Below are positions 4,655-27,206 of a DNA stretch of 64,000 nt, in pieces (position 1 is the first letter of the stretch; each line of letters opens with the position of its first letter). The position numbers were made by a program, and so were the translations under genes. Under the pieces are notes generated by a model, which saw nothing but the letters and a program-made list of their open reading frames with translations, had not been told where the DNA came from and did not search any database. Origin of the DNA: Terebella lapidaria (taxonomy: Eukaryota > Annelida > Polychaeta > Terebellida > Terebellidae); contig CASCJZ010000497.1 in NCBI GenBank assembly GCA_949152475.1, forward strand, positions 28,537 through 92,536, in the 5' to 3' direction.

Positions 4655-4694
4655 TCTGAGCTAGTCTCGGATCTTCGACCCAGACCGACCGGCA

Positions 4695-6590: not shown

Positions 6591-6662
6591 GAGGAAGGTG
6601 CTGAGGAGCAAGGGCCTTCCGGACAACAGAGCAATGTTCCCCGCTCCACACCTGCGGTTGTC

Positions 6663-8578
6663 ATGACTACCGCACCGGTATCGACACCAGTTATGACTCC
6701 GCAGCCGGCCCAGCCCACACCTCAGCTCCTTGAAGGGGTGTTTACCAAGTGCCATGTTCCGACCCCGACGCCGGCTCCTTTTCATGAAGGGGTGTCTGCA
6801 CCGCAGCCGCAACGACCTCCACGTGGAAATCGTCGTCCTGAAGGGGTGTCGCCCCCGACTGCCGATGGCACCGAAACGGACAGTATGTCCGAGGTTGAAT
6901 GGATTTCCGACGATGGCGGATTCTACGCCTTCCCATATGGACCGGAACCCAAGTTGCCGCCCCTGCACATGCTTTTCAAGCCGCCGCCAGACGACCCCGC
7001 TGTACCGCTTATCATAGACAATTCCCAAGCGGCCCAAGAGTGCTGGAAGTTGTCAGTACGTGTTGGTGATAAGGCAATGCAAGCTGTACTCGACTCCGGA
7101 GCGCAGATCTCATTGCTCCGTCGTGACCAACTCCGACACGTTCCCGCCGACCAACGGCAGTTACGACCCACTTCGGCCACGATTCGTGATGTCAATGGAC
7201 ACTCGAGCCCAATCGATGGACTGATCGACGTTCCAATTCAGGTCGGAACTAACCATATGGTGGTGACATTTTGTGTGGCCGACATACATGACGGCATGAT
7301 CCTCGGGATGAACTTCTTTCGGCAAGCTCACGCTGTAGTGAACTATGGTGAGGGGACAATACAGGTTCACAAAGAAATCCTGTTTGCGCACAAAGACATT
7401 GAGGCCAACGTCGTCAGAATGGCCGTGCGCCGAGCCGTCACCGTCCCTGCACGCAGCGAAGCAATAGTGGAGCTGGTCCCAACCTCCAGAGTTCGGGTTC
7501 GTCGACACCCGTGGATAGTCCAGCCACTGACGGCCTTTCCCGAGGAAACCGACCTCATCATGGGAAGAACACTAACGACCCTGGATCGGCAATGCATAAA
7601 AGTGTCAGTAGTCAATCCGGCAGATACTGACATTACCCTCACTCGTTCTGACCCCGTTGCGATAGCCAGCCCCATTGAGAGCATCGTTGGAGCTCTACCA
7701 AGACCCAGGGAGGAACCCGACCCGTCCACGGTAGACGCCAGTCATTACCGCGACCTGCCGCCATATCTACAGGAGATGGTGGATCGCGCCGGACTAGCGC
7801 CGGAGCAGCATCGACGTTGCGCCAACCTTGTCCACCAGTACCAGGACACTTTCATGCACCCGAACGGACAATTGGGGAGGACTCAAGTCGTCCAACATCG
7901 CATTGACACTGGCAACTCGGCCCCGATTCGGCAGCGACAGCGTCGCGTCCCTCAGACGCAGCAAAGCATCATCGATGAGGAGGTCGACAAGATGTTTCGC
8001 CTGGGGTGTATTGAGCCGTCAGATTTGCCTTGGAGCTCGCAAGTGGTGCTCGTGCGGAAAAAGAACGGCCAAGTACGTTTCTGTGTCGACTATCGGCTCC
8101 TGAATGATGTGACTCGCAAAGACTCCTATCCTTTGCCTAACATTCAGGATACTCACGACGCCCTGGCGGGCGCCACATACTTTTCGGCCCTGGACCTGGC
8201 CTCCGGTTACTGGCAGGTCGAAGTGGACCCCACCAACAGACCGAAAACTGCCTTCGCCACAAGGAAGGGACTGTACCAGTTTAAGGTCATGCCATTCAGC
8301 CTTAGCAACGCCCCGTCAACTTTCGAACGGCTTATGGAGACCATACTCCGCGGTTACTTGTGGACCCGGTGTATGTGCTATCTCGACGACGTCATAGCTT
8401 ACGGCAGAACATTTGACCAGGCACTCGCAAACTTGGAAGCGGTCCTGGATCGAATCAGATCGGCAGGCTTAAAACTTCAGCCCAAAAAGTGCGAACTGTT
8501 CCAAAGGGAAATCTTGTACTTGGGATTCATAGTTAGCGGCCAAGGTATCCGAGTCGACCCCAACAAAGTTAAAGCCAT
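6663..8578 (+). pseudogene. pol: pol of gypsy 1, part 1: protease and reverse transcriptase
   Basis: The frame opens with a Pro-rich linker. At residue 141 it shows AVLDSGAQISLL, the aspartic protease active site (Asp144), with the matching ILGMNFF motif near 213. RT follows from about 430: VRFCVDYRLLN, FSALDLASGYWQV (Asp511) and CYLDDVIAY (catalytic Asp575/Asp576), then YLGFIVSGQGI. These are standard Ty3/gypsy features. The frame is open until the BEL/Pao element inserts after GCCAT at 8574-8578, cutting the protein just after the motif DPNKVKAI. RT thumb and RNase H resume at 15787 in the same frame. Product would be truncated, so I call it a pseudogene although this half has no internal stop. 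Confidence 0.9.
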
Positions 8579-9274
8579 TATAGAGACTAGAAGGATGATT
8601 TTCAACTTTTATTGATGAACGACGATTGACTGAAACAGACATAAAAAATACTCGTGAGACACATACAGAGATATTGAACATTATGACACATACACGACTG
8701 AAATCTGGTTGAAACGTTATGATGTTTCCTTGTACTTGTAAATAAACAATATACTTGAACTGACAGACACTTGGAGTATTCTTGTAAATTTTTTAATATA
8801 ATTCAAAGTACCAAAACTACACTGTTACTGAAATTCACAAACCAATATAGTCCAGCTATGTATAATTTTATATAACTATTCAGTATTTACCTTGTGAGAA
8901 CTATTTTATGACACTGGGAAAATATAATGTGAAAATTACTGTGATATGACAGGTGCGTTACACGTGCGCACATGTTACCATGAACTATGAAAACTGACAA
9001 CCTGATTTAAACCTTTTGGACATGAATATATATTATTACTACTACCACGAAAACATTATAGAAAGGAAACAAACCATTCTTTATACTGTCTGGGAGGTGA
9101 ATATGACTTGTATTTAACATGTACTTGAACATTGCAACTTGGACAACTTTTTAGCGTGCACGAATCTCGGAAAACGGAAACAACACATTACACTCAGAAC
9201 ACCGACCACAAGTATGGATACGATGACGAAAAATAAACACCGACTGTAAGAAAAAATGAAGTCCGTCTCTTACA
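8579..9274 (-). repeat. 3' LTR of the BEL/Pao element
   Basis: 696 bp, starting TATAGAGACTAG on the + strand and ending GTCTCTTACA. It is about 99% identical to 15092-15786. In the element's own orientation it is the downstream copy. The 12-bp block just inside its left end is shared exactly with the other copy, which fixes the boundary. Confidence 0.95.
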
Positions 9275-9286
9275 CCAGCCCCCTAA
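9275..9286 (-). other. Polypurine tract of the BEL/Pao element
   Basis: On the minus strand the bases directly before the 3' LTR read TTTAGGGGGCTGG, a short purine-rich run. It is in the position where plus-strand DNA synthesis is primed. Confidence 0.5.
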
Positions 9287-9620
9287 ATGCGGCTTGTACC
9301 AGGAGCACTTACATGAATATACGAAAATATAATGAACATCGGAAATATTCAATCTTATACTTTGAACACAGTACTGATAAGTTGATAACAGGATTTCATT
9401 CCACCAATTGCCACACATATAATATTATTTTGCATACAATCATACAATATACTTCTTAGTTAACCGCAATAAGGCACACTTATCACAATACTCTTATCAT
9501 GTTCACTTATTACCATATTTGTACTTCACCATATACAAAGGTAAACATAATCTTATTTGTATCAGTCAAAACATTCATGAAATTAATCAACACATACAAA
9601 CTTATTCATGTACACACAAA

Positions 9621-12600
9621 TTAGTCAGCTTCAAGCAATAAACACAACTTGTGGATGGGGCGCTCCAACAAGGCAGATCTGGTTCGCACCTGAGCCGACC
9701 TGACCAGTCCCTGGCGATCTTTCTTTACGCTGTGCACACGGCCCATGATCCAACAATTCCTCTGATTGTCCAGTGTCAGGACGACATCTCCTTCTGTGAT
9801 GTTTCTGCGGACCCTTGTCCATTTCTGTCTTTCTTGTAGTAGGTGGAGGTATTCGCGCTGCCAGCGCTTCCAAAAACAATCTGCCAGATATTGAATCTGC
9901 CTCCATCGTCGCCTTGCGTAGTTGTCGTTTTCATCGAATACTCCTGCTGGCATGATTGTTGAAGCGTACACTAGAAGCAGGTGGTTTGGAGTAAGAGCTT
10001 GGATGTCGTGAGCATCTTCGGAGACGACTGTGATGGGCCTGTTGTTCAGGATACTTTCTACCTCGCAGAACAATGTTTGGAGCCCTTCGTCATCCATATG
10101 CAGTACTTGTTCGTGAAGCAATGCATACATGACCTTCCGCACTGTCCGGATGAGCCTCTCCCACACCCCGCCAAAGTGTGAGGCCGACGGAGGGTTGAAA
10201 TGCCATTGGATTCTAGGTGCAAGGTCATTGGCAATTTTGGAGTGATTCCATCCTTGTAGACTTTCTCTCATTTCTCGTTCCGCACCAACCAGGTTGGTAC
10301 CGTTGTCGGAGGTGATGGACTCGACATTTCCTCGTCGAGCCAGAAATCGTCTTATGGCACAGATGCACGAGTCTGCACTCAGCGAGTATGCCACCTCGAG
10401 GTGCAATACTCGAGACGTGAAACACGTGAAGATGACCCCGTAGCGCTTTATGGATACCCGACCACGTTTCACTTCGATGGGCCCGAAGTAGTCCACTCCT
10501 GTATGCGTGAATGGCGGTTTGTCTGGCTCTAGACGCTCTGACGGCAAGTTTGCCATTTTCTGTGTGCATGTAGTGGCCTTGTACCTGCGACATGTGACAC
10601 ACTTGGACGTGATGGCCTTGCAGAGTGAACCGATCTTGGGAATCCAGAAGACTCTCCTGACCTCAGATATCATGGCGTTCTTCCCTAGATGTCCAACCTT
10701 CCTGTGTGTGTCCCTCAGAATGAGTTCACTGATTCTTGACTTGCATGGGATGATGACTTGATGCTTGGCCGTGAAGTCCAGTGTCGAACTCTGTAGACGA
10801 CCTCCAACTCGCATGACTTGATTCTTGATAAATGGGTCAAGTTTTCGCAGGGTACTGGATGCTTTAACGTGATCTCCATTCAGCAGATCCGTTATCTCCT
10901 TAACATAGTATCTCTTCTGTTCATGTTGAACAATCAAAGTCTCTGCCCGATCAATGTTTTCTTGTAACAAGATGGGTTCAGTGTTGAGGTTCTTGGCTTT
11001 CTTGGATCTTGTGTTGTATCGATGGCGCTTGATTCGTGTAGCTTGCAGTATCCATCCTAGGATGCGTTTGGCCTTCTGCCAGGTCGAGCTTCTGGAGAGT
11101 ATTTGACTGATCACTGACGACTCATTGTCAGAAGTCTCGGTCGTCATTGCATTTGATGTGTATCTTGAATTGGATTTCACTTCTTTGTCATCCTCTGGAA
11201 GTATAATGACATCTGGTATTTCCGGCCAGTTACTTTCTGGTTCCCTAAGGAAAGATGGTCCCTGGAACCAATCCGAATTCTGGATCAGAGTAGCAATGTT
11301 CGTGCCTCGTGATGCCTTGTCAGCTGGATTACACTCGGATCTCACATAGTGCCACTGGCTTGGATCTGTGTGGTTCCTGATGACTGTAATTCTGTTGGCG
11401 ACAAAAGTGTAGAATCGAGCTGTTTCATTGTTGATGTATCGAATAACGGCCATGCTATCTGTCCAGAAAACCTGTGGTGCAGTCAGGTCCAACTCCTCTG
11501 TGACCTTCTGACTCATCCTGACTGCCACCACAGCTGCCGTCAGCTCCAACCTTGGCACTGTTATCTTTTTGAGGGGGGTCACTCGTGACGTTGCCATCAG
11601 CAGATTGCAGATTACGCCACCAGATGCATCTTCAAAGCGTATGTAGCAAGCCACCCCATATCCAGATTCACTGGCGTCTGAGAAGAAATGCAGTTGTGTG
11701 TCTGCATTTGTGTTTAGGTTACTTGGCCTGATGGATCTTGGCACTGTTAGCTTGCAGAGATCTTGTAGTTGTAGAAGCCAGCTGCTCCACCTTTCCATGA
11801 GTGACCTCGGTAATTCATCATCCCACTGCAGACCGAGGCTACAGGCCTCCTGCAGAATGATCTTGGCTTGCAGGGTGAAGGGTGCCGCCATTCCGAGCGG
11901 GTCGAACACCGAGCTCACGACTGACAGGATGGCTCGTCTTGTAGGCTGACAGCTTCTGGGAATGACGTCGAAGGTGAACTGGTCATGCTGAATGTCCCAG
12001 AGTACACCAAGGGCATGTTCTGGTGGGAACTGTTCAAAGCTGATTGTCGTGAGGTCTTTCGCTCTTTCACTTTCTGGAATGCTCTGTAACACTTCTAAGT
12101 TGTTGGATGTCCATTTTGTCACTCGAAAACCTCCTAGTGAACACATAGCAGAGACTTCTTGTACCACCTGGCATGCTTTTTCTGGACTTGTAAGAGCGAC
12201 GAGAAAGTCATCTACATAGAAGCTATTTCTCATGCTGTCTCTACTCTGTTTAGAGAACTGGTCCCCATAGTGGTCGACAACTCGTCTCAGGGCAAAGTTG
12301 GCCACGCTGGGAGATGACACTGCCCCGAAGAGGTGAACTGTCATCCTGTAGACCTCTGGGTTTCTTGAAGTGTCACCACCGGGCCACCAAAGGAACCGTA
12401 AGCTGTCACGGTCTTCTTGTTTTACTTTCACCTGATAGAACATCTTCTCGATGTCCCCCATGGCTGCCACTGGTGCAGACCTAAACCTGAGCAGAACCCC
12501 AATCAAGTTGTTTGTCAGGTCTGGTCCCTTCATGAGGACGTCATTCAGACACACGCCCTGGTATTTTGCCCTACAGTCAAACACCATGCGGATCTTTTCT

Positions 12601-15044
12601 GGATTTCTTCTGTGATAGATGCCATGGTGTGGCAAGTACCAGATTCGTGAGTTCTCTGCTTGTAACTCTGACTCTGGGACTTTCTCTGCAAATCCTCTTT
12701 CGAGTAGATTTGCCATGAAAGTATTGTAATCTTTGCTGAAACTAGAGCTTGAAGCTAGTCTTTTCTTGAGGCCACTCAATCGCTGACGTGCAAGCATCTC
12801 ATTGTTTGGCAGGACAGAGGTGTCCTTGAAGGGCAGCGCATACTCGTAAGATCCTGAGCACCTCTCCTCTGACCTCTGTAGGTGCTGTAAGAATCTTTGA
12901 TCCTCTTGTGACATCTCACGCTTTTCCCGTTGCTTGGAATCTTCTGGAAAGTCATGGTTTAGTATTTTCTGGTAGAGTTGGCTGAGGCCCTTGTTTTCTT
13001 GTAGAACTTGAACGTCAGCGTGATTTGTCATGCTCATGTATGACTGTTTGTATCTGTTTGGTACATCACGGCTCAGGTTCCAGACGATCCACCCGAGACG
13101 AGACTTGGAAGCATGCGGTGCACCACTTGGACCAGCTTTGACCTCCAGAGGGCTGTATGCATCTGGTATATTGTTGCCTAGCAACAGTCCTATGTCCGCA
13201 TTGATCTGAGGCAGATGCACTCCTTGCAGATATGGCCATTTTCTTGTGTCCTCTATTCTTGGAATGTGCTTTTGAGTCACAGGAATGTTGTTCTTGGAAT
13301 ATGCCACTGGTATTAACACGTCACTTGTGTGGTTGAGATCAGAAATGACCAAGTTGTTGATTTGCTGAGTCAGTAGTGTGTGTGGAACACCCATTGTGTT
13401 CACACTGAGTCGGGTACTTCTCCCTTCTGCTCCAAGTTGCCTCACCAGTTTATCTGTGCAGAACGACACGTTGCTGCCTGGGTCGAGAAACGCATATGTG
13501 GAGATGGACTTGAAAGAATCTTGAAGACGCACTTTCACCGGGATGATGGCCATTGTCACTTCCGGGTCGCAGATGCCAGCCCCCACATAGCCACCTAGGC
13601 TCGCCACAGATCTGGGATCTACAGAATCTGTGGTTGCAGTTGTAGGCCTTGGAGGTATCCTCCCATCCACATGTAGTACTGTCGGATGCTTGCCTTGGCA
13701 GCGACCACAAGTCATCTTGGACTTGCAAAATTTCCGGCTATGGCCCAGTCTCAGGCAACCATAGCAGTACCCCTTTGTCTTCAGAATATCGATGCAATCA
13801 TAGAATGGAAGTGTGGATAACTTTCTACAGTCTTTCAGGGCATGCAGGTCTTCACAATATGCACAAGGACTAGTGAATGCATCTCTTATTCTAGTAGAGC
13901 CGGTTTCTTTTATGTCAGTGGCGAAGGAGTTCTTGGGTCTGACACATGTTGTGCCGCTTGACTTAACCGTCTGTGTGGCAGGTGACTTCTTTGTTTCTTG
14001 TTTCAGGGCCTCTCTCCCATACACTGGGTCGCACGCCTTTCTGGCTTCTCTCTGAAGAAAAGACACCAAGTCTCTGAAGTGAACAGGGTTATGTTCTTCT
14101 TTAATGCGGAAAACCTGCGAGCGCCAGCGCTCTTGTATGCTGTATGGCAGTTTCCCGATAATTTTCCTCATATTTTCAGAGTACTCTAACACTTTGATAG
14201 CGTTCAAACTGCCAATGGCATTTTCACATTCAGACAGGAAAAGTGCAAAACTATCCAGTTCTTTTGCATCATCAGTCTTGATATTCGACCAGGAGAGGGC
14301 CTTTTTCATGAATGCATCCACTGTGATGTCAGGGTCCCCGTAGCGTCTTTCTAATTCTTGGAGTGCTGCTGCATATCCCCTGTCGGCATCCAGGTCGGAA
14401 AATGCTATCACAATTTTCATAGCATCTCCAGTGATATACTGTTCTAGATAACTTAGTCTTTCTTCATCATTGGTGCAATTCTTGACCACTTTGCTTCTGA
14501 ACTGTCTCATGAATCTGTGATAACACAGTGGGTCACCGCTGAATTTTTCAAGGTCAAGTGCAGGTCTATTTAGGTGATTTATGATGGACAGCGCCGGATC
14601 ATGTGAATCTCTGTCTGCTGAGTTGTTTGTCTTACTCGAAACACTTGCCTCCTGTACTGTTGCTTCCTGTGGTTCTTCCGTGGGCTGTACAGATCGGGTC
14701 CTAAACCACCGCTCGGCTGAGGCTTTGAAGTCGGCCACTGCAAGGTTTCGTGGGTGAAACCAATTGTCCTCGTACTCTGCAATGTCATCTTCAGACAGGA
14801 GTTCCCGAAACTCACTGTCCACGGCCAGAAACTCCTCATAGAGTCCCATCCAGTGTCTGTAGGATGTCTGTACCTTTTCCTTTTCCTCATTGGAGTCCAT
14901 GAAGTCCTGGGTTCGGGCAATAGCAGCCTCCATGTTCCCTTCCAAGCTTGAGAGGCGTTTTTTTTTCCTGTCAGCGAGATACTTCAACCCCTTTGCTGTC
15001 ATCTGACGTGTTCTGTGGCCGAGATCATCATCTCCTCCAGCCAT
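9621..15044 (-). CDS. gag-pol: BEL/Pao Gag-Pol polyprotein, intact
   Basis: A single 1807-residue frame encodes all functions needed for copy-and-paste movement. The N-terminal ~390 residues are Gag-like with a coiled-coil-prone start. Zinc knuckles follow at Cys394-Cys406 and Cys427-Cys440, plus a C446/C449/H453/H458 cluster. The aspartic protease motif LDPGSN is at 520-525 (Asp521); Pao proteases more often read D-S-G. RT shows GDIEKMFYQVK (Asp864) and YVDDFL (Asp945/Asp946). RNase H residues are Asp1123, Glu1167, Asp1196 and Asp1242. Integrase has the HX4H (1447/1452) and CX2C (1482/1485) zinc site and a DDE triad at about Asp1518, Asp1580 and Glu1629, with the wide last spacing seen in Pao elements. 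The ATG at 15044 lies about 47 bp inside the 5' LTR boundary. There are no stops or frameshifts. The LTR supplies promoter and polyadenylation signals. Confidence 0.95.
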   Translation of the reverse strand: MAGGDDDLGHRTRQMTAKGLKYLADRKKKRLSSLEGNMEAAIARTQDFMDSNEEKEKVQTSYRHWMGLYEEFLAVDSEFRELLSEDDIAEYEDNWFHPRNLAVADFKASAERWFRTRSVQPTEEPQEATVQEASVSSKTNNSADRDSHDPALSIINHLNRPALDLEKFSGDPLCYHRFMRQFRSKVVKNCTNDEERLSYLEQYITGDAMKIVIAFSDLDADRGYAAALQELERRYGDPDITVDAFMKKALSWSNIKTDDAKELDSFALFLSECENAIGSLNAIKVLEYSENMRKIIGKLPYSIQERWRSQVFRIKEEHNPVHFRDLVSFLQREARKACDPVYGREALKQETKKSPATQTVKSSGTTCVRPKNSFATDIKETGSTRIRDAFTSPCAYCEDLHALKDCRKLSTLPFYDCIDILKTKGYCYGCLRLGHSRKFCKSKMTCGRCQGKHPTVLHVDGRIPPRPTTATTDSVDPRSVASLGGYVGAGICDPEVTMAIIPVKVRLQDSFKSISTYAFLDPGSNVSFCTDKLVRQLGAEGRSTRLSVNTMGVPHTLLTQQINNLVISDLNHTSDVLIPVAYSKNNIPVTQKHIPRIEDTRKWPYLQGVHLPQINADIGLLLGNNIPDAYSPLEVKAGPSGAPHASKSRLGWIVWNLSRDVPNRYKQSYMSMTNHADVQVLQENKGLSQLYQKILNHDFPEDSKQREKREMSQEDQRFLQHLQRSEERCSGSYEYALPFKDTSVLPNNEMLARQRLSGLKKRLASSSSFSKDYNTFMANLLERGFAEKVPESELQAENSRIWYLPHHGIYHRRNPEKIRMVFDCRAKYQGVCLNDVLMKGPDLTNNLIGVLLRFRSAPVAAMGDIEKMFYQVKVKQEDRDSLRFLWWPGGDTSRNPEVYRMTVHLFGAVSSPSVANFALRRVVDHYGDQFSKQSRDSMRNSFYVDDFLVALTSPEKACQVVQEVSAMCSLGGFRVTKWTSNNLEVLQSIPESERAKDLTTISFEQFPPEHALGVLWDIQHDQFTFDVIPRSCQPTRRAILSVVSSVFDPLGMAAPFTLQAKIILQEACSLGLQWDDELPRSLMERWSSWLLQLQDLCKLTVPRSIRPSNLNTNADTQLHFFSDASESGYGVACYIRFEDASGGVICNLLMATSRVTPLKKITVPRLELTAAVVAVRMSQKVTEELDLTAPQVFWTDSMAVIRYINNETARFYTFVANRITVIRNHTDPSQWHYVRSECNPADKASRGTNIATLIQNSDWFQGPSFLREPESNWPEIPDVIILPEDDKEVKSNSRYTSNAMTTETSDNESSVISQILSRSSTWQKAKRILGWILQATRIKRHRYNTRSKKAKNLNTEPILLQENIDRAETLIVQHEQKRYYVKEITDLLNGDHVKASSTLRKLDPFIKNQVMRVGGRLQSSTLDFTAKHQVIIPCKSRISELILRDTHRKVGHLGKNAMISEVRRVFWIPKIGSLCKAITSKCVTCRRYKATTCTQKMANLPSERLEPDKPPFTHTGVDYFGPIEVKRGRVSIKRYGVIFTCFTSRVLHLEVAYSLSADSCICAIRRFLARRGNVESITSDNGTNLVGAEREMRESLQGWNHSKIANDLAPRIQWHFNPPSASHFGGVWERLIRTVRKVMYALLHEQVLHMDDEGLQTLFCEVESILNNRPITVVSEDAHDIQALTPNHLLLVYASTIMPAGVFDENDNYARRRWRQIQYLADCFWKRWQREYLHLLQERQKWTRVRRNITEGDVVLTLDNQRNCWIMGRVHSVKKDRQGLVRSAQVRTRSALLERPIHKLCLLLEAD

Positions 15045-15091
15045 TTCTGTTTTGTAGTCTTGTAGACGTCAATCAGCAGAATGTCAATGCG

Positions 15092-15786
15092 TATAGAGAC
15101 TAGAAGGATGATTTTCAACTTTTATTGATGAACGACGATTGACTGAAACAGACATAAAAAATACTCGTGAGACACATACAGAGATATTGAACATTATGAC
15201 ACATACACGACTGAAATCTGGTTGAAACGTTATGATGTTTCCTTGTACTTGTAAATAAACAATATACTTGAACTGACAGACACTTGGAGTATTCTTGTAA
15301 ATTTGTAAATATAATTCAAAGTACCAAAACTACACTGTTACTGAAATTCACAAACCAATATAGTCCAGCTATGTATAATTTTATATAACTATTCAGTATT
15401 TACCTTGTGAGAACTATTTTATGACCCTGGGAAAATATAATGTGAAAATTACTGTGATATGACAGGTGCGTTACACGTGCGCACATGTTACCATGAACTA
15501 TGAAAACTGACAACCTGATTTAAACTTTTTGGACATGAATATATATTATGACTACTACCACGAAAACATTATAGAAAGGAAACAAACCATTCTTTATACT
15601 GTCTGGGAGGTGAATATGACTTGTATTTAACATGTACTTGAACATTACAACTTGGACAACTTTTTAGCGTGCACGAATCTCGGAAACGGAAACAACACAT
15701 TACACTCAGAACACCGACCACAAGTATGGATATGATGACGAAAAATAAACACCGACTGTAAGAAAAAATGAAGTCCGTCTCTTACA
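15092..15786 (-). repeat. 5' LTR of the BEL/Pao element
   Basis: 695 bp and ~99% identical to 8579-9274. In the element's orientation it precedes the ORF and would drive its transcription. The bases between this LTR and the ORF (15045-15091) hold the primer-binding region. I could not recognise a canonical TGG-starting site there. Confidence 0.95.
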
Positions 15787-16812
15787 GCCATTAAAGAATA
15801 GCCGACCCCGTGCGAGATCACCAACGTCAGGGCCTTCCTTGGTTTCGCCAATTACCACAGGCGGTTCATCAAGGACTACGCTGAGATCGCTGAACCTCTC
15901 GTAGTGCTCACCCGAGGTGATTGCCACTTCACTTGGGGATCGGCCCAGCGACGAGCTTTCCAGCGACTCCGCGACGCCCTCATTAAGGCGCCAAAGCTCG
16001 CTCACCCGACCCAGAATCCGGACGACTACTTCATCCTCGACACGGATGCGAGCGGCTTTGCTGTGGGAGGCACACTCTCTCAAAGGGTTAACGGGAAGGA
16101 GATCCCCATTGGGTTCGCCAGTGAAACCCTCTCCCGAACCCAACGGAACTATTGCACCACCTATCGGGAACTTCTGGCAGTAGTCGAGATGGTGCAGCAT
16201 TATTGGCACTACCTCTGGGGTAGGAGATTCCTCCTCCGGACCAACCATAGCTCATTGAGGTGGCTAAAGAATTACAGCGACGCCGATGGCATGCTCGCCA
16301 GGTGGCTCGCCAAGCTGCAACAGTACGACTTTCGGATAGAACATCGACCCGGCAAGCTACACGGCAACGCTGACGGCCTGTCACGGTGTCACAGTTGTAA
16401 ACATCAAGACTGTCCCGGACGACTCGTCACACCGCCGACCGACCCAGAAACAAGTTCCGGAGAACTTCCAGTTCGGAACAACTATTGTTCCGGCCCAGAC
16501 AAGGGCAGACCTCTTGGACAGTGATTCTATGACATCACCGGTTTTGCCCCAACTAGTTTCAGCACGCCAAGTTGTTCGAGTCCGTGCTTTGGACGCCACG
16601 CTTGATGGACAAAAGTGGCTATCGGACTATACGACCCAGGACATTGTCGCGGCCCAGCAAGCTGACCCCAGTGTTGGAAAAGTGCGGCAATGGATAATGG
16701 CCGGCACGAAACCGGACTCAAAAGAAGTGGCACGCCATGGAGAGGAGGTAAAGACACTCATTTATCACTGGAACCTCCTGGCGCTACAAGACGGAGTGCT
16801 GGTACGACCAAT
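15787..16812 (+). pseudogene. pol: pol of gypsy 1, part 2: RT thumb, RNase H, linker; integrase lost
   Basis: This resumes the gypsy frame split by the BEL insert. A TAG at 15799-15801 stands where gypsy proteins usually have Trp in a K-x-W-P motif. RNase H follows: FILDTDASGF, YRELLAVVEM, then RTNHSSLRWL and HRPGKLHGNADGLSR. The third acidic position is Asn in place of the usual Asp in TDHSSL, so RNase H is likely dead. The frame closes at 16522-16524 and the coding signal shifts to the frame of 16514-16849. That frame gives the post-RNase H linker up to LLALQDGVLVRP, where similarity ends at about 16812. The integrase zinc finger and DDE core expected next are missing. The element is thus broken by a stop, a frameshift, a catalytic change and a deletion. 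Confidence 0.85.
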
Positions 16813-16946
16813 GAAATCTCAGCCTTTAATAACTGAATGTCGTCTGTGAAATAACAATTCGACCCCGCTAGTTTATTGTGCGCTAACTTGTGGGAGAAGG
16901 AACGATTAACTGTGATAGTTCACAAGGTACGCACGAGCGCTGATAA
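16813..16946 (+). other. Spacer between truncated pol and the cassette array
   Basis: 134 bp of unrecognised sequence. It contains TTCGACCCCGC, the element's characteristic hexamer, so it probably belongs to gypsy 1 and is not host DNA. It starts with AATGAAATCTC, close to ACATGAAATCTC found 30 bp inside the first cassette. Confidence 0.4.
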
Positions 16947-17363
16947 ACTCTAAAGCTGTTTACAGCACCCACATGAAATCTCCCCTGATAAAGACAATAG
17001 TGAATCGTCGGGCAAAAAGAGCCCAGTAATCTGAACAGTCGAATAGCATAAACAGAATATGTCTTGGAGTGCGTTATCCAGGGAACTGACCTAGTCGATC
17101 AGAGAAGGATCGCACCGCGTTTCCTTGACGACGGCCCTGCCTTGCTGTGTGTACGCTTGGAACAATGGTATATAGCGTAAAGACGTTTTCTATACAGATA
17201 GAGAGCGCCCCCCGGCCCAATTCGTGGAATCGAGATGCTTTCACATCTTTGTGTACAGCTGTAGTGATTAGCGGCAATCAGGTCATTCGCGCCCGAGACT
17301 TTGGAGAAGAAGGAGCTGTATCAGGAGTGTCGGATATTGAAACTAAAACGTGCGGACTATTGC

Positions 17364-17370
17364 TATAAAA
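17364..17370 (+). promoter_or_regulatory. TATA box of cassette unit 1 (repeated every 1685 bp)
   Basis: TATAAAA followed by GCAG, about 200 bp upstream of the ORF1 start. The same motif stands at 19049, 20734, 22419 and 24104. A GT-rich leader with repeats of TTGTGAAC follows. It resembles a Pol II core promoter separate from the LTR; I have only the motif and its position as evidence. Confidence 0.45.
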
Positions 17371-17567
17371 GCAGTGTAACTTTGTCGGCCTGTGAACTGT
17401 GACATTTGTGAACATTTGTAGCAAAGTTTAACAGAACTTTGTGAACTATTTCGGCTTGGAATAGTGTTCGGCATTGAACTAGGTCGGCTTTGAAGAAATC
17501 GGGACTTTTGTTACAGCCGGCCTAGTAACTGCTGGGAGAGCTTTCGGCATCGTAGCGGCCTGACAAT

Positions 17568-17996
17568 ATGGCCGACAAACCCGGATATGACCGGGATAAT
17601 GGCAACCCTGACGAAAATCGGCCCCGCACTGTAAAAATGGACGGAGAAAAGATTACCGTCCAAGTAGTCGACCAGGGTGAGGAATCCGATCACCCGATAA
17701 TCGTCCCTGATGACGATTCTACGTCCGGCCCCGAGTCTCAACCCGAGCAATTCGTCCAAAACGGCCCCGGAGATACCCCGAGTGGATCGGAGAAGGGTGC
17801 GCGACCCAAATCGGCCAAAGACAAGCTGGCGCAACGCGGAGCACGCCATACGCCGAGCCCGACCCAGGACGACATTTTCAGTATCGACCCCAAGCGCTTC
17901 CGCCGCCTCGAGGAAGGCGGGAGCATTGTTCAGCGTGCGATCGAGGCACGACAGGCGGCTCAGGAAGCTCAGCGAGTCGCCAACCCGAACCAGTAA
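17568..17996 (+). CDS. Cassette ORF1, unit 1 (unknown acidic/disordered protein)
   Basis: 142 residues, start ATG in context ACAATATGG, stop TAA. I do not recognise a family. The first ~70 residues are acidic and rich in Asp, Pro, Gln and Ser. A basic patch follows at 78-97 (GARPKSAKDKLAQRGARH), then a helix-prone tail (DDIFSIDPKRFRRLEEGG and an Ala/Gln/Arg-rich stretch). No Cys, signal peptide or membrane segment is seen. It lies about 200 bp below a TATA box and downstream of pol, so it may be an accessory or Gag-like RNA-binding protein of the retroelement; that is a guess. Unit 1 alone has Lys in DPKRF where the others have Glu. A 166-codon antisense frame overlaps it in all units. Confidence 0.5.
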   Translation: MADKPGYDRDNGNPDENRPRTVKMDGEKITVQVVDQGEESDHPIIVPDDDSTSGPESQPEQFVQNGPGDTPSGSEKGARPKSAKDKLAQRGARHTPSPTQDDIFSIDPKRFRRLEEGGSIVQRAIEARQAAQEAQRVANPNQ

Positions 17997-18076
17997 GACA
18001 AGTGATCGCACCGATTGCTCCGGCCCCGACTTCCCCAGCTACCGGCTCAGCGGTAGCGCTAACTTCGGCTTCCTGA

Positions 18077-18598
18077 TCTCCGAATAAACGGACTTACACT
18101 TCATTCAAGAAGAAACACGGAGCGGGAACTCGATCGGCATCCAGCAGTTCGTCACGCTACAGTGGCGGATCTGCCATTTCGACCCCAGCATCGACCTTCC
18201 ATCGTCAAGTGGCGAAACTCATGGAGTTGGTGCCACCTCCGTTGACACCTTACGGAACTCGACCCATTGACTGGAATCAGATTCCACTCGGCAAGCAAAA
18301 TCGGAGCGCTGGATACGGCCATATCCATAACTTCGATGAACAGTCGACCCTGTCGTAGAGTAATCTCCTTACTCTGGCCCCGCTTCAGCGTGGTGACGGC
18401 CGGTATGAATGCCCCTTCTGCATTGGAGAAGAGGAGGGAGCAGGAGAACGGCAGTGGTCCACCGTATCACGATGCGGACCTTTCCATACGGCCCAGATCT
18501 TGGACGCACACGTTTTGGCGTACCACTTCCCGTTTCTACGCTTCTTCGTGTGCCTGGCCCGCGACAACTTCTGGACATTGGCCCAGGAAGAAAATTAA
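18077..18598 (+). pseudogene. Cassette ORF2, unit 1 (zinc-finger-like, broken by TAG)
   Basis: In the frame +2 relative to ORF1 a coding-like stretch runs from after a TGA (18074-18076) to TAA at 18596-18598, interrupted by TAG at 18356-18358. The first half is basic and Ser-rich with SFKKKHGAGTR. The second half has YECPFC (CX2C at 18410-18421), then a CGPFH and DAHVLAYH arrangement that could complete a zinc finger, and ends FWTLAQEEN. Both stops occur in all five units, so they predate the amplification. Function unknown. The terminal TAA overlaps the ATG of ORF3 as TAATG. Confidence 0.4.
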
Positions 18599-19252
18599 TG
18601 TTCCGGCACTTGTCACAAGCGACCCCGCAACACTCTAAAGCTGTTTACAGCACCCACATGAAATCTTCCCTGATAAAGACAATAGTGAATCGTCGGGCAA
18701 AAAGAGCCCAGTAATCTGAACAGTCGAATAGCATAAACAGAATATGTCTTGGAGTGCGTTATCCAGGGGACTGACCTAGTCGATCAGAGAAGGATCGCAC
18801 CGCGTTTCCTTGACGACGGCCCTGCCTTGCTGTGTGTACGCTTGGAACAATGGTATATAGCGTAAAGACGTTTTCTATACAGATAGAGAGCGCCCCCCGG
18901 CCCAATTCGTGGAATCGAGATGCTTTCACATCTTTGTGTACAGCTGTAGTGATTAGCGGCAATCAGGTCATTCGCGCCCGAGACTTTGGAGAAGAAGGAG
19001 CTGTATCAGGAGTGTCGGATATTGAAACTAAAACGTGCGGACTATTGCTATAAAAGCAGTGTAACTTTGTCGGCCTGTGAACTGTGACATTTGTGAACAT
19101 TTGTAGCAAAGTTTAACAGAACTTTGTGAACTATTTCGGCTTGGAATAGTGTTCGGCATTGAACTAGGTCAGCTTTGAAGAAATCGGGACTTTTGTTACA
19201 GCCGGCCTAGTAACTGCTGGGAGAGCTTTCGGCATCGTAGCGGCCTGACAAT

Positions 19253-19681
19253 ATGGCCGACAAACCCGGATATGACCGGGATAATGGCAACCCTGACGAA
19301 AATCGGACCCGCACTGTAAAAATGGACGGAGAAAAGATTACCGTCCAAGTAGTCGACCAGGGTGAGGAATCCGATCACCCGATAATCGTCCCTGATGACG
19401 ATTCTACGTCCGGCCCCGAGTCTCAACCCGAGCAATTCGTCCAAAACGGCCCCGGAGATACCCCGAGTGGATCGGAGAAGGGTGCGCGACCCAAATCGGC
19501 CAAAGACAAGCTGGCGCAACGCGGAGCACGCCATACGCCGAGCCCGACCCAGGACGACATTTTCAGTATCGACCCCGAGCGCTTCCGCCGCCTCGAGGAA
19601 GGCGGGAGCATTGTTCAGCGTGCGATCGAGGCACGACAGGCGGCTCAGGAAGCTCAGCGAGTCGCCAACCCGAACCAGTAA
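19253..19681 (+). CDS. Cassette ORF1, unit 2
   Basis: Second copy of the 142-residue ORF. It differs from unit 1 by Thr for Pro in the N-terminal NENR(T/P)RT region and by Glu for Lys in DPERF. The frame is fully open. Same unknown acidic, low-complexity protein with a basic patch and helical tail. Confidence 0.5.
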   Translation: MADKPGYDRDNGNPDENRTRTVKMDGEKITVQVVDQGEESDHPIIVPDDDSTSGPESQPEQFVQNGPGDTPSGSEKGARPKSAKDKLAQRGARHTPSPTQDDIFSIDPERFRRLEEGGSIVQRAIEARQAAQEAQRVANPNQ

Positions 19682-19761
19682 GACAAGTGATCGCACCGAT
19701 TGCTCCGGCCCCGACTTCCCCAGCTACCGGCTCAGCGGTAGCGCTAACTTCGGCTTCCTGA

Positions 19762-20283
19762 TCTCCGAATAAACGGACTTACACTTCATTCAAGAAGAAA
19801 CACGGAGCGGGAACTCGATCGGCATCCAGCAGTTCGTCACGCTACAGTGGCGGATCTGCCATTTCGACCCCAGCATCGACCTTCCATCGTCAAGTGGCGA
19901 AACTCATGGAGTTGGTGCCACCTCCGTTGACACCTTACGGAACTCGACCCATTGACTGGAATCAGATTCCACTCGGCAAGCAAAATCGGAGCGCTGGATA
20001 CGGCCATATCCATAACTTCGATGAACAGTCGACCCTGTCGTAGAGTAATCTCCTTACTCTGGCCCCGCTTCAGCGTGGTGACGGCCGGTATGAATGCCCC
20101 TTCTGCATTGGAGAAGAGGAGGGAGCAGGAGAACGGCAGTGGTCCACCGTATCACGATGCGGACCTTTCCATACGGCCCAGATCTTGGACGCACACGTTT
20201 TGGCGTACCACTTCCCGTTTCTACGCTTCTTCGTGTGCCTGGCCCGCGACAACTTCTGGACATTGGCCCAGGAAGAAAATTAA
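19762..20283 (+). pseudogene. Cassette ORF2, unit 2
   Basis: Copy of the zinc-finger-like frame with the same internal TAG (20041-20043) and the same TAATG end. Not expected to give a full-length product without readthrough. Confidence 0.35.
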
Positions 20284-20937
20284 TGTTCCGGCACTTGTCA
20301 CAAGCGACCCCGCAACACTCTAAAGCTGTTTACAGCACCCACATGAAATCTCCCCTGATAAAGACAATAGTGAATCGTTGGGCAAAAAGAGCCCAGTAAT
20401 CTGAACAGTCGAATAGCATAAACAGAATATGTCTTGGAGTGCGTTATCCAGGGGACTGACCTAGTCGATCAGAGAAGGATCGCACCGCGTTTCCTTGACG
20501 ACGGCCCTGCCTTGCTGTGTGTACGCTTGGAACAATGGTATATAGCGTAAAGACGTTTTCTATACAGATAGAGAGCGCCCCCCGGCCCAATTCGTGGAAT
20601 CGAGATGCTTTCACATCTTTGTGTACAGCTGTAGTGATTAGCGGCAATCAGGTCATTCGCGCCCGAGACTTTGGAGAAGAAGGAGCTGTATCAGGAGTGT
20701 CGGATATTGAAACTAAAACGTGCGGACTATTGCTATAAAAGCAGTGTAACTTTGTCGGCCTGTGAACTGTGACATTTGTGAACATTTGTAGCAAAGTTTA
20801 ACAGAACTTTGTGAACTATTTCGGCTTGGAATAGTGTTCGGCATTGAACTAGGTCGGCTTTGAAGAAATCGGGACTTTTGTTACAGCCGGCCTAGTAACT
20901 GCTGGGAGAGCTTTCGGCATCGTAGCGGCCTGACAAT

Positions 20938-21366
20938 ATGGCCGACAAACCCGGATATGACCGGGATAATGGCAACCCTGACGAAAATCGGCCCCGCACT
21001 GTAAAAATGGACGGAGAAAAGATTACCGTCCAAGTAGTCGACCAGGGTGAGGAATCCGATCACCCGATAATCGTCCCTGATGACGATTCTACGTCCGGCC
21101 CCGAGTCTCAACCCGAGCAATTCGTCCAAAACGGCCCCGGAGATACCCCGAGTGGATCGGAGAAGGGTGCGCGACCCAAATCGGCCAAAGACAAGCTGGC
21201 GCAACGCGGAGCACGCCATACGCCGAGCCCGACCCAGGACGACATTTTCAGTATCGACCCCGAGCGCTTCCGCCGCCTCGAGGAAGGCGGGAGCATTGTT
21301 CAGCGTGCGATCGAGGCACGACAGGCGGCTCAGGAAGCTCAGCGAGTCGCCAACCCGAACCAGTAA
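20938..21366 (+). CDS. Cassette ORF1, unit 3
   Basis: Third copy. It encodes the apparent consensus form of the 142-residue protein (Pro in NENRPRT, Glu in DPERF). Open throughout, with the same TATA box 200 bp upstream. Confidence 0.5.
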   Translation: MADKPGYDRDNGNPDENRPRTVKMDGEKITVQVVDQGEESDHPIIVPDDDSTSGPESQPEQFVQNGPGDTPSGSEKGARPKSAKDKLAQRGARHTPSPTQDDIFSIDPERFRRLEEGGSIVQRAIEARQAAQEAQRVANPNQ

Positions 21367-21446
21367 GACAAGTGATCGCACCGATTGCTCCGGCCCCGAC
21401 TTCCCCAGCTACCGGCTCAGCGGTAGCGCTAACTTCGGCTTCCTGA

Positions 21447-21968
21447 TCTCCGAATAAACGGACTTACACTTCATTCAAGAAGAAACACGGAGCGGGAACT
21501 CGATCGGCATCCAGCAGTTCGTCACGCTACAGTGGCGGATCTGCCATTTCGACCCCAGCATCGACCTTCCATCGTCAAGTGGCGAAACTCATGGAGTTGG
21601 TGCCACCTCCGTTGACACCTTACGGAACTCGACCCATTGACTGGAATCAGATTCCACTCGGCAAGCAAAATCGGAGCGCTGGATACGGCCATATCCATAA
21701 CTTCGATGAACAGTCGACCCTGTCGTAGAGTAATCTCCTTACTCTGGCCCCGCTTCAGCGTGGTGACGGCCGGTATGAATGCCCCTTCTGCATTGGAGAA
21801 GAGGAGGGAGCAGGAGAACGGCAGTGGTCCACCGTATCACGATGCGGACCTTTCCATACGGCCCAGATCTTGGACGCACACGTTTTGGCGTACCACTTCC
21901 CGTTTCTACGCTTCTTCGTGTGCCTGGCCCGCGACAACTTCTGGACATTGGCCCAGGAAGAAAATTAA
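21447..21968 (+). pseudogene. Cassette ORF2, unit 3
   Basis: Third copy of the broken zinc-finger-like frame, with TAG at 21726-21728 and the terminal TAATG overlap. Confidence 0.35.
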
Positions 21969-22622
21969 TGTTCCGGCACTTGTCACAAGCGACCCCGCAA
22001 CACTCTAAAGCTGTTTACAGCACCCACATGAAATCTTCCCTGATAAAGACAATAGTGAATCGTCGGGCAAAAAGAGCCCAGTAATCTGAACAGTCGAATA
22101 GCATAAACAGAATATGTCTTGGAGTGCGTTATCCAGGGGACTGACCTAGTCGATCAGAGAAGGATCGCACCGCGTTTCCTTGACGACGGCCCTGCCTTGC
22201 TGTGTGTACGCTTGGAACAATGGTATATAGCGTAAAGACGTTTTCTATACAGATAGAGAGCGCCCCCCGGCCCAATTCGTGGAATCGAGATGCTTTCACA
22301 TCTTTGTGTACAGCTGTAGTGATTAGCGGCAATCAGGTCATTCGCGCCCGAGACTTTGGAGAAGAAGGAGCTGTATCAGGAGTGTCGGATATTGAAACTA
22401 AAACGTGCGGACTATTGCTATAAAAGCAGTGTAACTTTGTCGGCCTGTGAACTGTGACATTTGTGAACATTTGTAGCAAAGTTTAACAGAACTTTGTGAA
22501 GTATTTCGGCTTGGAATAGTGTTCGGCATTGAACTAGGTCGGCTTTGAAGAAATCGGGACTTTTGTTACAGCCGGCCTAGTAACTGCTGGGAGAGCTTTC
22601 GGCATCGTAGCGGCCTGACAAT

Positions 22623-23051
22623 ATGGCCGACAAACCCGGATATGACCGGGATAATGGCAACCCTGACGAAAATCGGCCCCGCACTGTAAAAATGGACGGA
22701 GAAAAGATTACCGTCCAAGTAGTCGACCAGGGTGAGGAATCCGATCACCCGATAATCGTCCCTGATGACGATTCTACGTCCGGCCCCGAGTCTCAACCCG
22801 AGCAATTCGTCCAAAACGGCCCCGGAGATACCCCGAGTGGATCGGAGAAGGGTGCGCGACCCAAATCGGCCAAAGACAAGCTGGCGCAACGCGGAGCACG
22901 CCATACGCCGAGCCCGACCCAGGACGACATTTTCAGTATCGACCCCGAGCGCTTCCGCCGCCTCGAGGAAGGCGGGAGCATTGTTCAGCGTGCGATCGAG
23001 GCACGACAGGCGGCTCAGGAAGCTCAGCGAGTCGCCAACCCGAACCAGTAA
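22623..23051 (+). CDS. Cassette ORF1, unit 4
   Basis: Fourth copy, with the same protein sequence as unit 3. Upstream, in the leader at 22501, it carries the G variant shared only with unit 5. Confidence 0.5.
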   Translation: MADKPGYDRDNGNPDENRPRTVKMDGEKITVQVVDQGEESDHPIIVPDDDSTSGPESQPEQFVQNGPGDTPSGSEKGARPKSAKDKLAQRGARHTPSPTQDDIFSIDPERFRRLEEGGSIVQRAIEARQAAQEAQRVANPNQ

Positions 23052-23131
23052 GACAAGTGATCGCACCGATTGCTCCGGCCCCGACTTCCCCAGCTACCGG
23101 CTCAGCGGTAGCGCTAACTTCGGCTTCCTGA

Positions 23132-23653
23132 TCTCCGAATAAACGGACTTACACTTCATTCAAGAAGAAACACGGAGCGGGAACTCGATCGGCATCCAGC
23201 AGTTCGTCACGCTACAGTGGCGGATCTGCCATTTCGACCCCAGCATCGACCTTCCATCGTCAAGTGGCGAAACTCATGGAGTTGGTGCCACCTCCGTTGA
23301 CACCTTACGGAACTCGACCCATTGACTGGAATCAGATTCCACTCGGCAAGCAAAATCGGAGCGCTGGATACGGCCATATCCATAACTTCGATGAACAGTC
23401 GACCCTGTCGTAGAGTAATCTCCTTACTCTGGCCCCGCTTCAGCGTGGTGACGGCCGGTATGAATGCCCCTTCTGCATTGGAGAAGAGGAGGGAGCAGGA
23501 GAACGGCAGTGGTCCACCGTATCACGATGCGGACCTTTCCATACGGCCCAGATCTTGGACGCACACGTTTTGGCGTACCACTTCCCGTTTCTACGCTTCT
23601 TCGTGTGCCTGGCCCGCGACAACTTCTGGACATTGGCCCAGGAAGAAAATTAA
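23132..23653 (+). pseudogene. Cassette ORF2, unit 4
   Basis: Fourth copy of the broken zinc-finger-like frame, with TAG at 23411-23413 and the terminal TAATG overlap. Confidence 0.35.
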
Positions 23654-24307
23654 TGTTCCGGCACTTGTCACAAGCGACCCCGCAACACTCTAAAGCTGTT
23701 TACAGCACCCACATGAAATCTCCCCTGATAAAGACAATAGTGAATCGTCGGCCAAAAAGAGCCCAGTAATCTGAACAGTCGAATAGCATAAACAGAATAT
23801 GTCTTGGAGTGCGTTATCCAGGGGACTGACCTAGTAGATCAGAGAAGGATCGCACCGCGTTTCCTTGACGACGGCCCTGCCTTGCTGTGTGTACGCTTGG
23901 AACAATGGTATATAGCGTAAAGACGTTTTCTATACAGATAGAGAGCGCCCCCCGGCCCAATTCGTGGAATCGAGATGCTTTCACATCTTTGTGTACAGCT
24001 GTAGTGATTAGCGGCAATCAGGTCATTCGCGCCCGAGACTTTGGAGAAGAAGGAGCTGTATCAGGAGTGTCGGATATTGAAACTAAAACGTGCGGACTAT
24101 TGCTATAAAAGCAGTGTAACTTTGTCGGCCTGTGAACTGTGACATTTGTGAACATTTGTAGCAAAGTTTAACAGAACTTTGTGAAGTATTTCGGCTTGGA
24201 ATAGTGTTCGGCATTGAACTAGGTCGGCTTTGAAGAAATCGGGACTTTTGTTACAGCCGGCCTAGTAACTGCTGGGAGAGCTTTCGGCATCGTAGCGGCC
24301 TGACAAT

Positions 24308-24736
24308 ATGGCCGACAAACCCGGAGATGACCGGGATAATGGCAACCCTGACGAAAATCGGCCCCGCACAGTAAAAATGGACGGAGAAAAGATTACCGTC
24401 CAAGTAGTCGACCAGGGTGAGGAATCCGATCACCCGATAATCGTCCCTGATGACGATTCTACGTCCGGCCCTGAGTCTCAACCCGAGCAATTCGTCCAAA
24501 ACGGCCCCGGAGATACCCCGAGTGGATCGGAGAAGGGTGCGCGACCCAAATCGGCCAAAGACAAGCTGGCGCAACGCGGAGCACGCCATACGCCGAGCCC
24601 GACTAAGGACGACATTTTCAGTATCGACCCCGAGCGCTTCCGCCGCCTCGAGGAAGGCGGGAGCATTGTTCAGCGTGCGATCGAGGCACGACAGGCGGCT
24701 CAGGAAGCTCAGCGAGTCGCCAACCCGAACCAGTAA
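24308..24736 (+). CDS. Cassette ORF1, unit 5
   Basis: Fifth and most divergent copy. It has Asp for Tyr at residue 7 and Lys for Gln in SPTKDDIF, plus silent changes, and remains open. All protein-level differences among the five copies are missense; none is a stop or frameshift. Confidence 0.5.
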   Translation: MADKPGDDRDNGNPDENRPRTVKMDGEKITVQVVDQGEESDHPIIVPDDDSTSGPESQPEQFVQNGPGDTPSGSEKGARPKSAKDKLAQRGARHTPSPTKDDIFSIDPERFRRLEEGGSIVQRAIEARQAAQEAQRVANPNQ

Positions 24737-24816
24737 GACAAGTGATCGCACCGATTGCTCCGGCCCCGACTTCCCCAGCTACCGGCTCAGCGGTAGCGCT
24801 AACTTCGGCTTCCTGA

Positions 24817-25338
24817 TCTCCGAATAAACGGACTTACACTTCATTCAAGAAGAAACACGGAGCGGGAACTCGATCGGCATCCAGCAGTTCGTCACGCTAC
24901 AGTGGCGGATCTGCCATTTCGACCCCACCATCGACCTTCCATCGTCAAGTGCCGAAACTCATGGAGTTGGTGCCACCTCCGTTGACACCTTACGGAACTC
25001 GACCCATTGACTGGAATCAGATTCCACTCGGCAAGCGAAATCGGAGCGCTGGATACGGCCATATCCATAACTTCGATGAACAGTCGACCCTGTCGTAGAG
25101 TAATCTCCTTACTCTGGCCCCGCTTCAGCGTGGTGACGGCCGGTATGAATGCCCCTTCTGCATTGGAGAAGAGGAGGGAGCAGGAGAACGGCAGTGGTCC
25201 ACCGTATCACGATGCGGACCTTTCCATACGGCCCAGATCTTGGACGCACACGTTTTGGCGTACCACTTCCCGTTTCTACGCTTCTTCGTGTGCCCGGCCC
25301 GCGACAACTTCTGGACATTGGCCCAGGAAGAAAATTAA
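24817..25338 (+). pseudogene. Cassette ORF2, unit 5
   Basis: Fifth copy of the zinc-finger-like frame. It has the same TAG (25096-25098) and private missense changes. Unlike units 1-4, its final TAATG leads into the full-length ORF3. Confidence 0.35.
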
Positions 25339-26776
25339 TGTTCCGGCACTTGTCACAAGCGACCCCGCAACACGTGACGTCATTCCCCTTCTACCAGGAA
25401 GGCCGACTGTCAGCATCCAGCCCCATGCTTGTTAGGTTCGCGCTACGCTGCAGAGTCGACATGCAGCCGAACCCCAATTATCGACCCCCGAGAGTTCCGG
25501 CTAACATCCCGATCTTCGGGAGGGATGTCAATACGGTCCTGACATTCGGCATCTGGCACATGGCGCCGGAGCTGTTCGATCAGTGTCCGCCCAACTCGGC
25601 TCCAGAAGTTCAGCAGGTACTCCATCGACTAGAGTACAACCGTGCCACGACCCCAGCAGACGAGATTCGACTTACCCGCATGGTCAGCGACATTGAGACC
25701 ATGAACACGTGGGTTCGTGTACGTCGGCCCAGTACTATTTTCTTCATCTGTCCTATCACGTACCAGTCGACTACAGTGAGGACGGCGGAGGAAGTTCCGG
25801 TAACGGCCACCGGCACTTCGACCTCAACGACCACTAGTTCGGCCTCATTCGTGTCAGTGGTATCCCCGGCGATCACACGGCCGGTTACTACCATGACGAC
25901 TTCGACCCCGTCTAGAGCTCAACCCTCCGACATCATACCCCGGTAGATGGTTGTAGAGCGGCCCACGGCTCCCAACGTAACTGACTACCGAGTCCGTGAG
26001 GGCTTGGTTCCTCCACCAGAGGAGTACCCGCCACTCCAGAGTCGACCCACGAACACGACGCCTCCCCCAGCGTCATCTGCCAAGGAGACTCCTGGATCTG
26101 AGAGTCCCGTCGGAGATCGGCCGCCTCCGCTCAGGGAGATTGCACCAGGATCTCCTGAGCATTCGACCCCGACACCTTCACCAACCCCAGACACCTCACC
26201 GGCACCTTCGAGGCGGATGGTGGAACCTGTCCCGCTGCCGCCATACCTCACGGAGGAAGTGGAGCCCCTCCGCTCCGTACCGACACATGGTGCCGATGGA
26301 GACCGACCCCGACTCAGAATGGACGACCCCGGACAACTCCAGTCGCTCCACCGCGATCTGGATTAGCGTCTCCCATTACATGGATCCAGAGAATTTGCGG
26401 CAAATTTCCAGTTTCTTCAGCAGCATTGAGGAAGTCTGGCGACCCGCATGCTGCCCGGCTTGCAAGCGTTGCCCGGCCGGAACCCTGACCTCCGAGACTT
26501 CTTGCGGGACGAAGACGCTCAACGGCTCCCAAATTACCTCGGATTCCATGAGGACTTTTGGACGGCCCGCCTCGAACAGGCCGCCCATAATGCCGACCCC
26601 TTGCTCCTGCCCTCGGAACCGGAGGAGCATCTACCGACCCTGGCTCTCGCTCGCACTGATGACTTGGCGCATCAGTATCTTCGGCTAATTCGTCGAGAGT
26701 ACATGTCGTTGTTTCCAATCCATATCATATTCGTTGTCATGCATGTATGTGTAATGTATCATCGTAGTGACTGCTG
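25338..26776 (+). pseudogene. Post-pol ORF3 of gypsy 1 (one frame, three internal stops)
   Basis: A single frame runs from ATG 25338 to TGA 26774-26776, broken by TAG at 25944-25946, TAG at 26364-26366 and a TGA near 26421. Segment 1 (202 codons) has a folded-looking part (NIPIFGRDVNTVLTFGIWHM) and a Thr/Ser-rich tail. Segment 2 starts ATG 25947, directly after the first stop, and is Pro-rich with LPPYL. Segment 3 is compositionally like a helical domain (RNPDLRDFLRDEDAQRL) and ends with a hydrophobic run, LFPIHIIFVVMHVCVMY, that could span a membrane. The place between pol and the 3' LTR is where env genes sit in some gypsy elements, but I see no Env signature. In units 1-4 only the first 13 codons survive. 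Confidence 0.45.
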
Positions 26777-27009: not shown

Positions 27010-27206
27010 TGTAATGTAGTGATTTTAGTGACAGTAACTCCCATCCCTCCCACGCACTACACATTTCCATCACAACATATACATTCTACTTGACTTACAT
27101 ACAGAACAGGTACACGCTATACGATCACAAGCATAAACTTTACCGGAACCATGTATACAAACACAGGCCAAACCCCGTGCATCTGCGGCCCCGTTTACTC
27201 AGTTTA
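27010..27206 (+). repeat. Truncated 3' LTR of gypsy 1
   Basis: Matches 3872-4065 of the 5' LTR with a few differences, then stops at GTTTACTCA and passes into the C-terminal integrase coding of gypsy 2 on the other strand. About 570 bp of LTR are missing, including the promoter and polyadenylation signals. Confidence 0.85.

Follow-up and report, generated by a model that had tools for sequence, protein, structure and literature searches.

A fivefold tandem array in a broken Ty3/gypsy copy of Terebella lapidaria looks like ordinary DNA duplication, not amplification of a working gene

We analyzed a 64,000-nucleotide stretch of the Terebella lapidaria genome (hereafter, the window; positions 28537–92536 of contig C391, whose end coincides with the end of the window, in an assembly of 761.6 Mb and 438 contigs). 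The window harbors a decayed copy of a Ty3/gypsy retrotransposon—its pol split by a BEL/Pao element and its integrase lost—and within this copy, between pol and the 3′ long terminal repeat (LTR), lie five direct head-to-tail repeats at positions 16947–25371 (Table 1). Each unit is exactly 1685 bp, with no length differences between units. Mismatches number 3–5 between any two of units 1–4 and 12–15 between unit 5 and each other unit, for a total of 18 variable sites, and five 1685-bp copies at 99% identity rule out chance as the source of the array. A 2-bp overlap (AC) marks the array edges, with both the unit and the right flank beginning with AC. An initial annotation of this DNA had described five near-identical gene cassettes in a gypsy element, situated after a truncated pol and before the 3′ LTR, with 2-bp microhomology at their edges. 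The units, their edges and the truncated pol to their left (protease, reverse transcriptase and an RNase H piece, with the integrase part missing) were all recovered in our analysis; the 3′ LTR to their right is present as well, albeit as an incomplete fragment cut by a minus-strand element. The array is real, has an ordinary cause and contains no working gene.

A genome search with the unit scored 40 of 832 candidates, comprising two arrays (that of the window and a second one; see below) and 38 dispersed places at 79–83% identity. We examined 26 of these 38 dispersed relatives, fetching 10 kb for 16 and 4.5 kb for the other 10. In 24 of the 26, the match that runs up to window position 18631 resumes at 25372–25374, within 3 bases; the exceptions are L026, which is deleted across this point, and L039, which ends there. 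Since the relatives are continuous across the array point, the 1685-bp unit belongs to the normal interior of the element. The insertion of a foreign cassette into the element was therefore rejected, as the relatives carry the segment in place, and what had been annotated as a gene cassette continues the element's own sequence. The initial annotation had also proposed counting cassette copies per element: no tandem duplication of the segment was found in the fetched stretches of 24 of the 26 relatives, and the remaining two (L017 and L021) carry other duplications. Four relatives (L013, L018, L023, and L039) contain other repeats, which lie outside the matched part of the element.

L017 and L021 each hold a tandem duplication of their own, with endpoints that differ from those of the array. 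The L017 duplication (L017:1913–5445) has copies of 1766–1767 bp that are 99.3% alike, and that of L021 (L021:5008–7847) has copies of ~1415 bp that are 98.6% alike. Both overlap the post-pol stretch of the array, and each join shows a 2-bp overlap. The L017 junction occurs once in the genome, and the L021 junction has one exact occurrence together with one 2-mismatch match on contig C3. In a tree of the region, the window element, L017, and L021 fall on separate branches. The post-pol region thus duplicates recurrently in this family, two relatives having overlapping tandem duplications private to each.

The array itself is confined to one region. Its unit–unit junction has eight occurrences in the genome, four in the window and four on contig C12; with up to 2 mismatches allowed, the 761.6-Mb assembly contains no other. 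The C12 array corresponds to that of the window: window positions 1–37386 align without gaps to C12:4288001–4325386, with 8 mismatches in 37,386 bases. Five of these eight mismatches fall within 23836–26364, and three of the eight are in unit 5, where C12 has the state of units 1–4. C391 probably represents either the second haplotype or a redundant contig. A host satellite found no support, either in the unit search (40 of 832 candidates scored) or in the junction search. Because the junction is limited to the window and C12, we do not file the array as a satellite; amplification neither at many sites nor to satellite size was seen, and the array is a local tandem duplication.

As to its content, each unit consists of a noncoding leader followed by codons 1 to ~358 of a 932-codon gene that the family carries after pol. 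This gene is present as a complete ATG-initiated open reading frame (ORF) in three of 16 relatives (L016, L019, and L024; L016:5352–8147), and a cruder count (longest frame, MA to stop) gives at least 925 residues in six of the 26. In the window, by contrast with these complete genes, tblastn recovers it in three frames (residues 1–138, 138–346, and 343–809). Every unit holds residues 1 to ~358, and residues 1–358 need three frames in each. A 13-bp deletion occurs in all five units and in none of the 26 relatives, and a 5-bp insertion likewise occurs in all five units and in none of the 25 relatives that cover the site (L026 lacks it). Since both lesions are common to all units and found in no covering relative, the gene was broken before the amplification. 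The 142-codon ORF that had been called intact does exist in each unit; however, it is not an intact gene but the stub ahead of the first break, cut by the 13-bp deletion and corresponding to about the first 138 codons of the 932-codon ORF.

Judging from sequence comparison, the post-pol gene of the family is or was under purifying selection: pairwise ratios of nonsynonymous to synonymous substitution rates (dN/dS) among the three complete genes are 0.128–0.133, with the lowest values (0.03–0.04) at codons 311–465. Codons 1–135 of the units, compared with the relatives, also give a low dN/dS (0.12–0.22), which can reflect the history of the family before the break. Among the units, seven stub codons vary, four of them altering the residue; these are too few for a test and give no sign of constraint.

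Each unit had further been credited with its own TATA box. In the leader of the post-pol gene, five of five units indeed contain TATAAAA (window 17365–17380 and aligned sites), but the motif is not conserved in the family. TATAAA stands at the aligned site in two of the 26 relatives (L017 and L021), L015 has TATAAA a few bases further on and L027 lacks the site, while most of the other relatives read TTACAAAA or a close variant at this place. A conserved internal promoter was therefore rejected for the family. All three element copies with duplications are among the four of 27 copies that have TATAAA (L027 counted as without), a coincidence with a probability of 0.0014 by chance that was noticed post hoc. 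Because the duplications of L017 and L021 begin downstream of TATAAA, the association between the motif and duplication is only a lead. With three private duplications of 1.4–1.8 kb on separate branches in an overlapping stretch, one might picture the post-pol region as a recurrent duplication hotspot in which an acquired internal promoter, by driving transcription, may trigger duplication next to a new, non-envelope-like type of post-pol gene, an idea that we consider rather improbable.

Table 1 Features of the Ty3/gypsy copy, the element nested in it and the tandem array (window coordinates).
Feature	Position	Strand	Remarks
5′ LTR of the gypsy copy	3878..4635	+	Matches the 3′ LTR fragment and the LTRs of relatives; end (~4635) approximate, set where the match to the relatives' LTR stops
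gag region (assigned from position alone) and first part of pol	4690..8615	+	Relatives match this stretch
BEL/Pao element nested in pol	8579..15786	−	LTRs 98.9% alike; single 1807-aa ORF 9621–15044
Remainder of pol	15782..16849	+	RNase H piece at 16189–16524 (Pfam); integrase part gone after ~16816
Unit 1	16947..18631	+	Stub ORF 17568–17996
Unit 2	18632..20316	+	Stub ORF 19253–19681
Unit 3	20317..22001	+	Stub ORF 20938–21366
Unit 4	22002..23686	+	Stub ORF 22623–23051
Unit 5	23687..25371	+	Most divergent; stub ORF 24308–24736
Continuation of post-pol gene, broken	25372..26726	+	tblastn: residues up to 809 of the L016 932-aa ORF
3′ LTR fragment	27015..27200 (end ~)	+	Interrupted by minus-strand element

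The LTRs of the window copy, a pair in direct orientation, provide a clock for the array. They show 6 differences in the 186 bases compared, the 3′ copy being incomplete, and set against this figure, the differences between units range from 3/1685 (Fisher p 6e-5) to 15/1685 (p 0.014). Since the units are less diverged than the LTR fragments, the array probably arose after insertion. The order of events can also be read from the units. At positions 17586, 18297, and 18555, 16 of 16 aligned relatives have the base of unit 5, whereas units 1–4 share a derived base; because the relatives share the unit 5 base at these three sites, unit 5 separated first. This bears out the earlier description of unit 5 as the most divergent, as unequal exchange would leave it. 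The base at 16982 and its equivalents is common to units 2 and 4 and absent from units 1, 3, and 5, a pattern that fits duplication of a two-unit block.

At a probability of roughly 0.8, our preferred reading is that, in a decayed gypsy copy, 1685 bp of its own post-pol region were tandemly duplicated at the DNA level, after insertion of the element and without any function for it. The first head-to-tail duplication would have joined two sites sharing 2 bp, by microhomology-mediated repair or a replication error, and the left part would then have grown to four units through conversion or unequal crossing over among them. Several points weigh against this reading. The LTR comparison spans 186 bases only, the units of an older array could have been kept similar by gene conversion, and ~16% of random joins would show a 2-bp overlap by chance. 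Moreover, the copies of L017 are not significantly more alike than its LTRs (11/1767 versus 10/753; p 0.09), nor are those of L021 any more alike than the part of its LTR that was compared (12/1413 versus 1/532; p 0.13). The duplications in these two relatives may be as old as the respective insertions, and such duplications need not all postdate insertion.

The L021 comparison would also suit an array that formed inside the particle during reverse transcription, through template switching or strand transfer, and was inserted with its multiple units in place; in passages of PMC7004042, such an origin is proposed for short tandem repeats in plant Tat/Ogre elements. Yet the window units are less diverged than the LTR fragments, and the array junction occurs at no other locus, so that neither a parent nor an offspring element bearing the array came to light; we consider this origin unlikely. 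Very little probability attaches to an assembly artefact, in which the true number of units would not be five. C391 and C12, with 8 differences in 37,386 bases, are perhaps one region assembled twice and hence not independent, and the clustering of five of these differences at 23836–26364, with three in unit 5, points the same way; against this, unit-specific substitutions mark the units, and their order is identical in C391 and C12.

The initial annotation had instead favored dosage amplification of a post-pol accessory gene. On this view, selection would have maintained five copies, each expressed from a TATA promoter of its own. Retention of the stub ORF and of TATAAAA in five of five units is in keeping with this proposal, as are the purifying selection on the family gene and the still low dN/dS over codons 1–135 of the units. 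However, the two frameshifting lesions in all five units predate the array; the stub holds only ~138 of 932 codons, and no amplified copy has a complete reading frame; the junction is restricted to the window and C12; the element lacks integrase and has its pol split; the TATA motif is not conserved; and four of the seven variable stub codons change the residue. On this sequence evidence, dosage amplification would appear scarcely credible. The claim of gene-dosage amplification in a retroelement is thereby removed, and its place is taken by a locus-private duplication of a dead copy with a readable order of events.

Our reading of the array as DNA duplication can be set beside known systems. 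According to passages of PMC7004042, which cites Macas et al. 2009, the 3′ untranslated region (UTR) of plant Ty3/gypsy elements of the Tat/Ogre type harbors tandem repeats that are a source of satellites and are hypothesized to stem from illegitimate recombination or abnormal strand transfer. Going by these passages, the array likewise consists of element-internal tandem repeats between pol and the 3′ LTR and represents a possible first step toward a satellite. Unlike the Tat/Ogre repeats—short, located in a noncoding 3′ UTR and common across elements—the array has a 1685-bp unit that combines a leader with the beginning of a gene, and it is private to one locus. Passages of the review PMC9659126 treat arrays derived from elements and name unequal crossover and ectopic repair as mechanisms. 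The mechanism and outcome proposed for the array are the same as for the element-segment duplications covered there, while in contrast to those general cases, the array is a single locus with a dated order of units, and no satellite-sized array was seen. The displayed passages of two papers on mollusc and annelid LTR elements (PMC6238403 and PMC8220671) contain no such array, and a literature search, mostly by title, returned no title describing an array of such size between pol and LTR. The array may capture an early step from a retrotransposon to a tandem array with kilobase units.

The most interesting by-product of this analysis, and one more worth studying than the array itself, is the 932-aa post-pol gene, for which the protein search returned no relative: none of the 7992 candidates scored was a homolog at E 0.001. 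A Pfam search of the 932-aa protein gave no match above the cut-off, and a single PDB chain aligned to residues 828–873 (E 0.8) was taken as a chance hit. Residues C286, C289, H319, and H324 (CxxC, HxxxxH) are invariant in the three complete proteins and form a group that we presume to be zinc-finger-like, although Pfam did not report it. The L016 protein contains no transmembrane-like stretch, its top 19-residue Kyte–Doolittle mean being 1.1 (no dedicated predictor was run), and without such a segment, the gene was not identified as env. Sense additional ORFs (aORFs) between pol and the 3′ LTR, whether env-like or not, are described in passages of PMC7264820. The 932-aa gene resembles them, as far as these passages go, in being sense-oriented and located between pol and the 3′ LTR, and differs from env-like aORFs in that its protein has neither a typical transmembrane hydrophobic stretch nor a Pfam match above the cut-off.

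Regarding the host copy, Pfam finds protease and reverse transcriptase in the ORF at 6663–8615, and ~1–2 kb that is present in relatives at window position 16816 is missing here. The two relatives scanned, L019 and L024, have the pol order reverse transcriptase, RNase H, integrase H2C2, rve. Through these relatives, together with the protease and reverse transcriptase of the window, the family matches the Ty3/gypsy pol order, while the window copy itself is without integrase. The BEL/Pao element that splits pol encodes, in its 1807-aa ORF, the Pfam domains Pao peptidase, RVT_1 and others, and the minus-strand element that cuts the 3′ LTR contains an ORF (27143–27733) matching the integrase C-terminal domain. 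Finally, the window includes two further arrays, at 46524–47944 and 51481–52942, of ~11 copies of a 134-bp repeat, 93% alike and ~5 kb apart.

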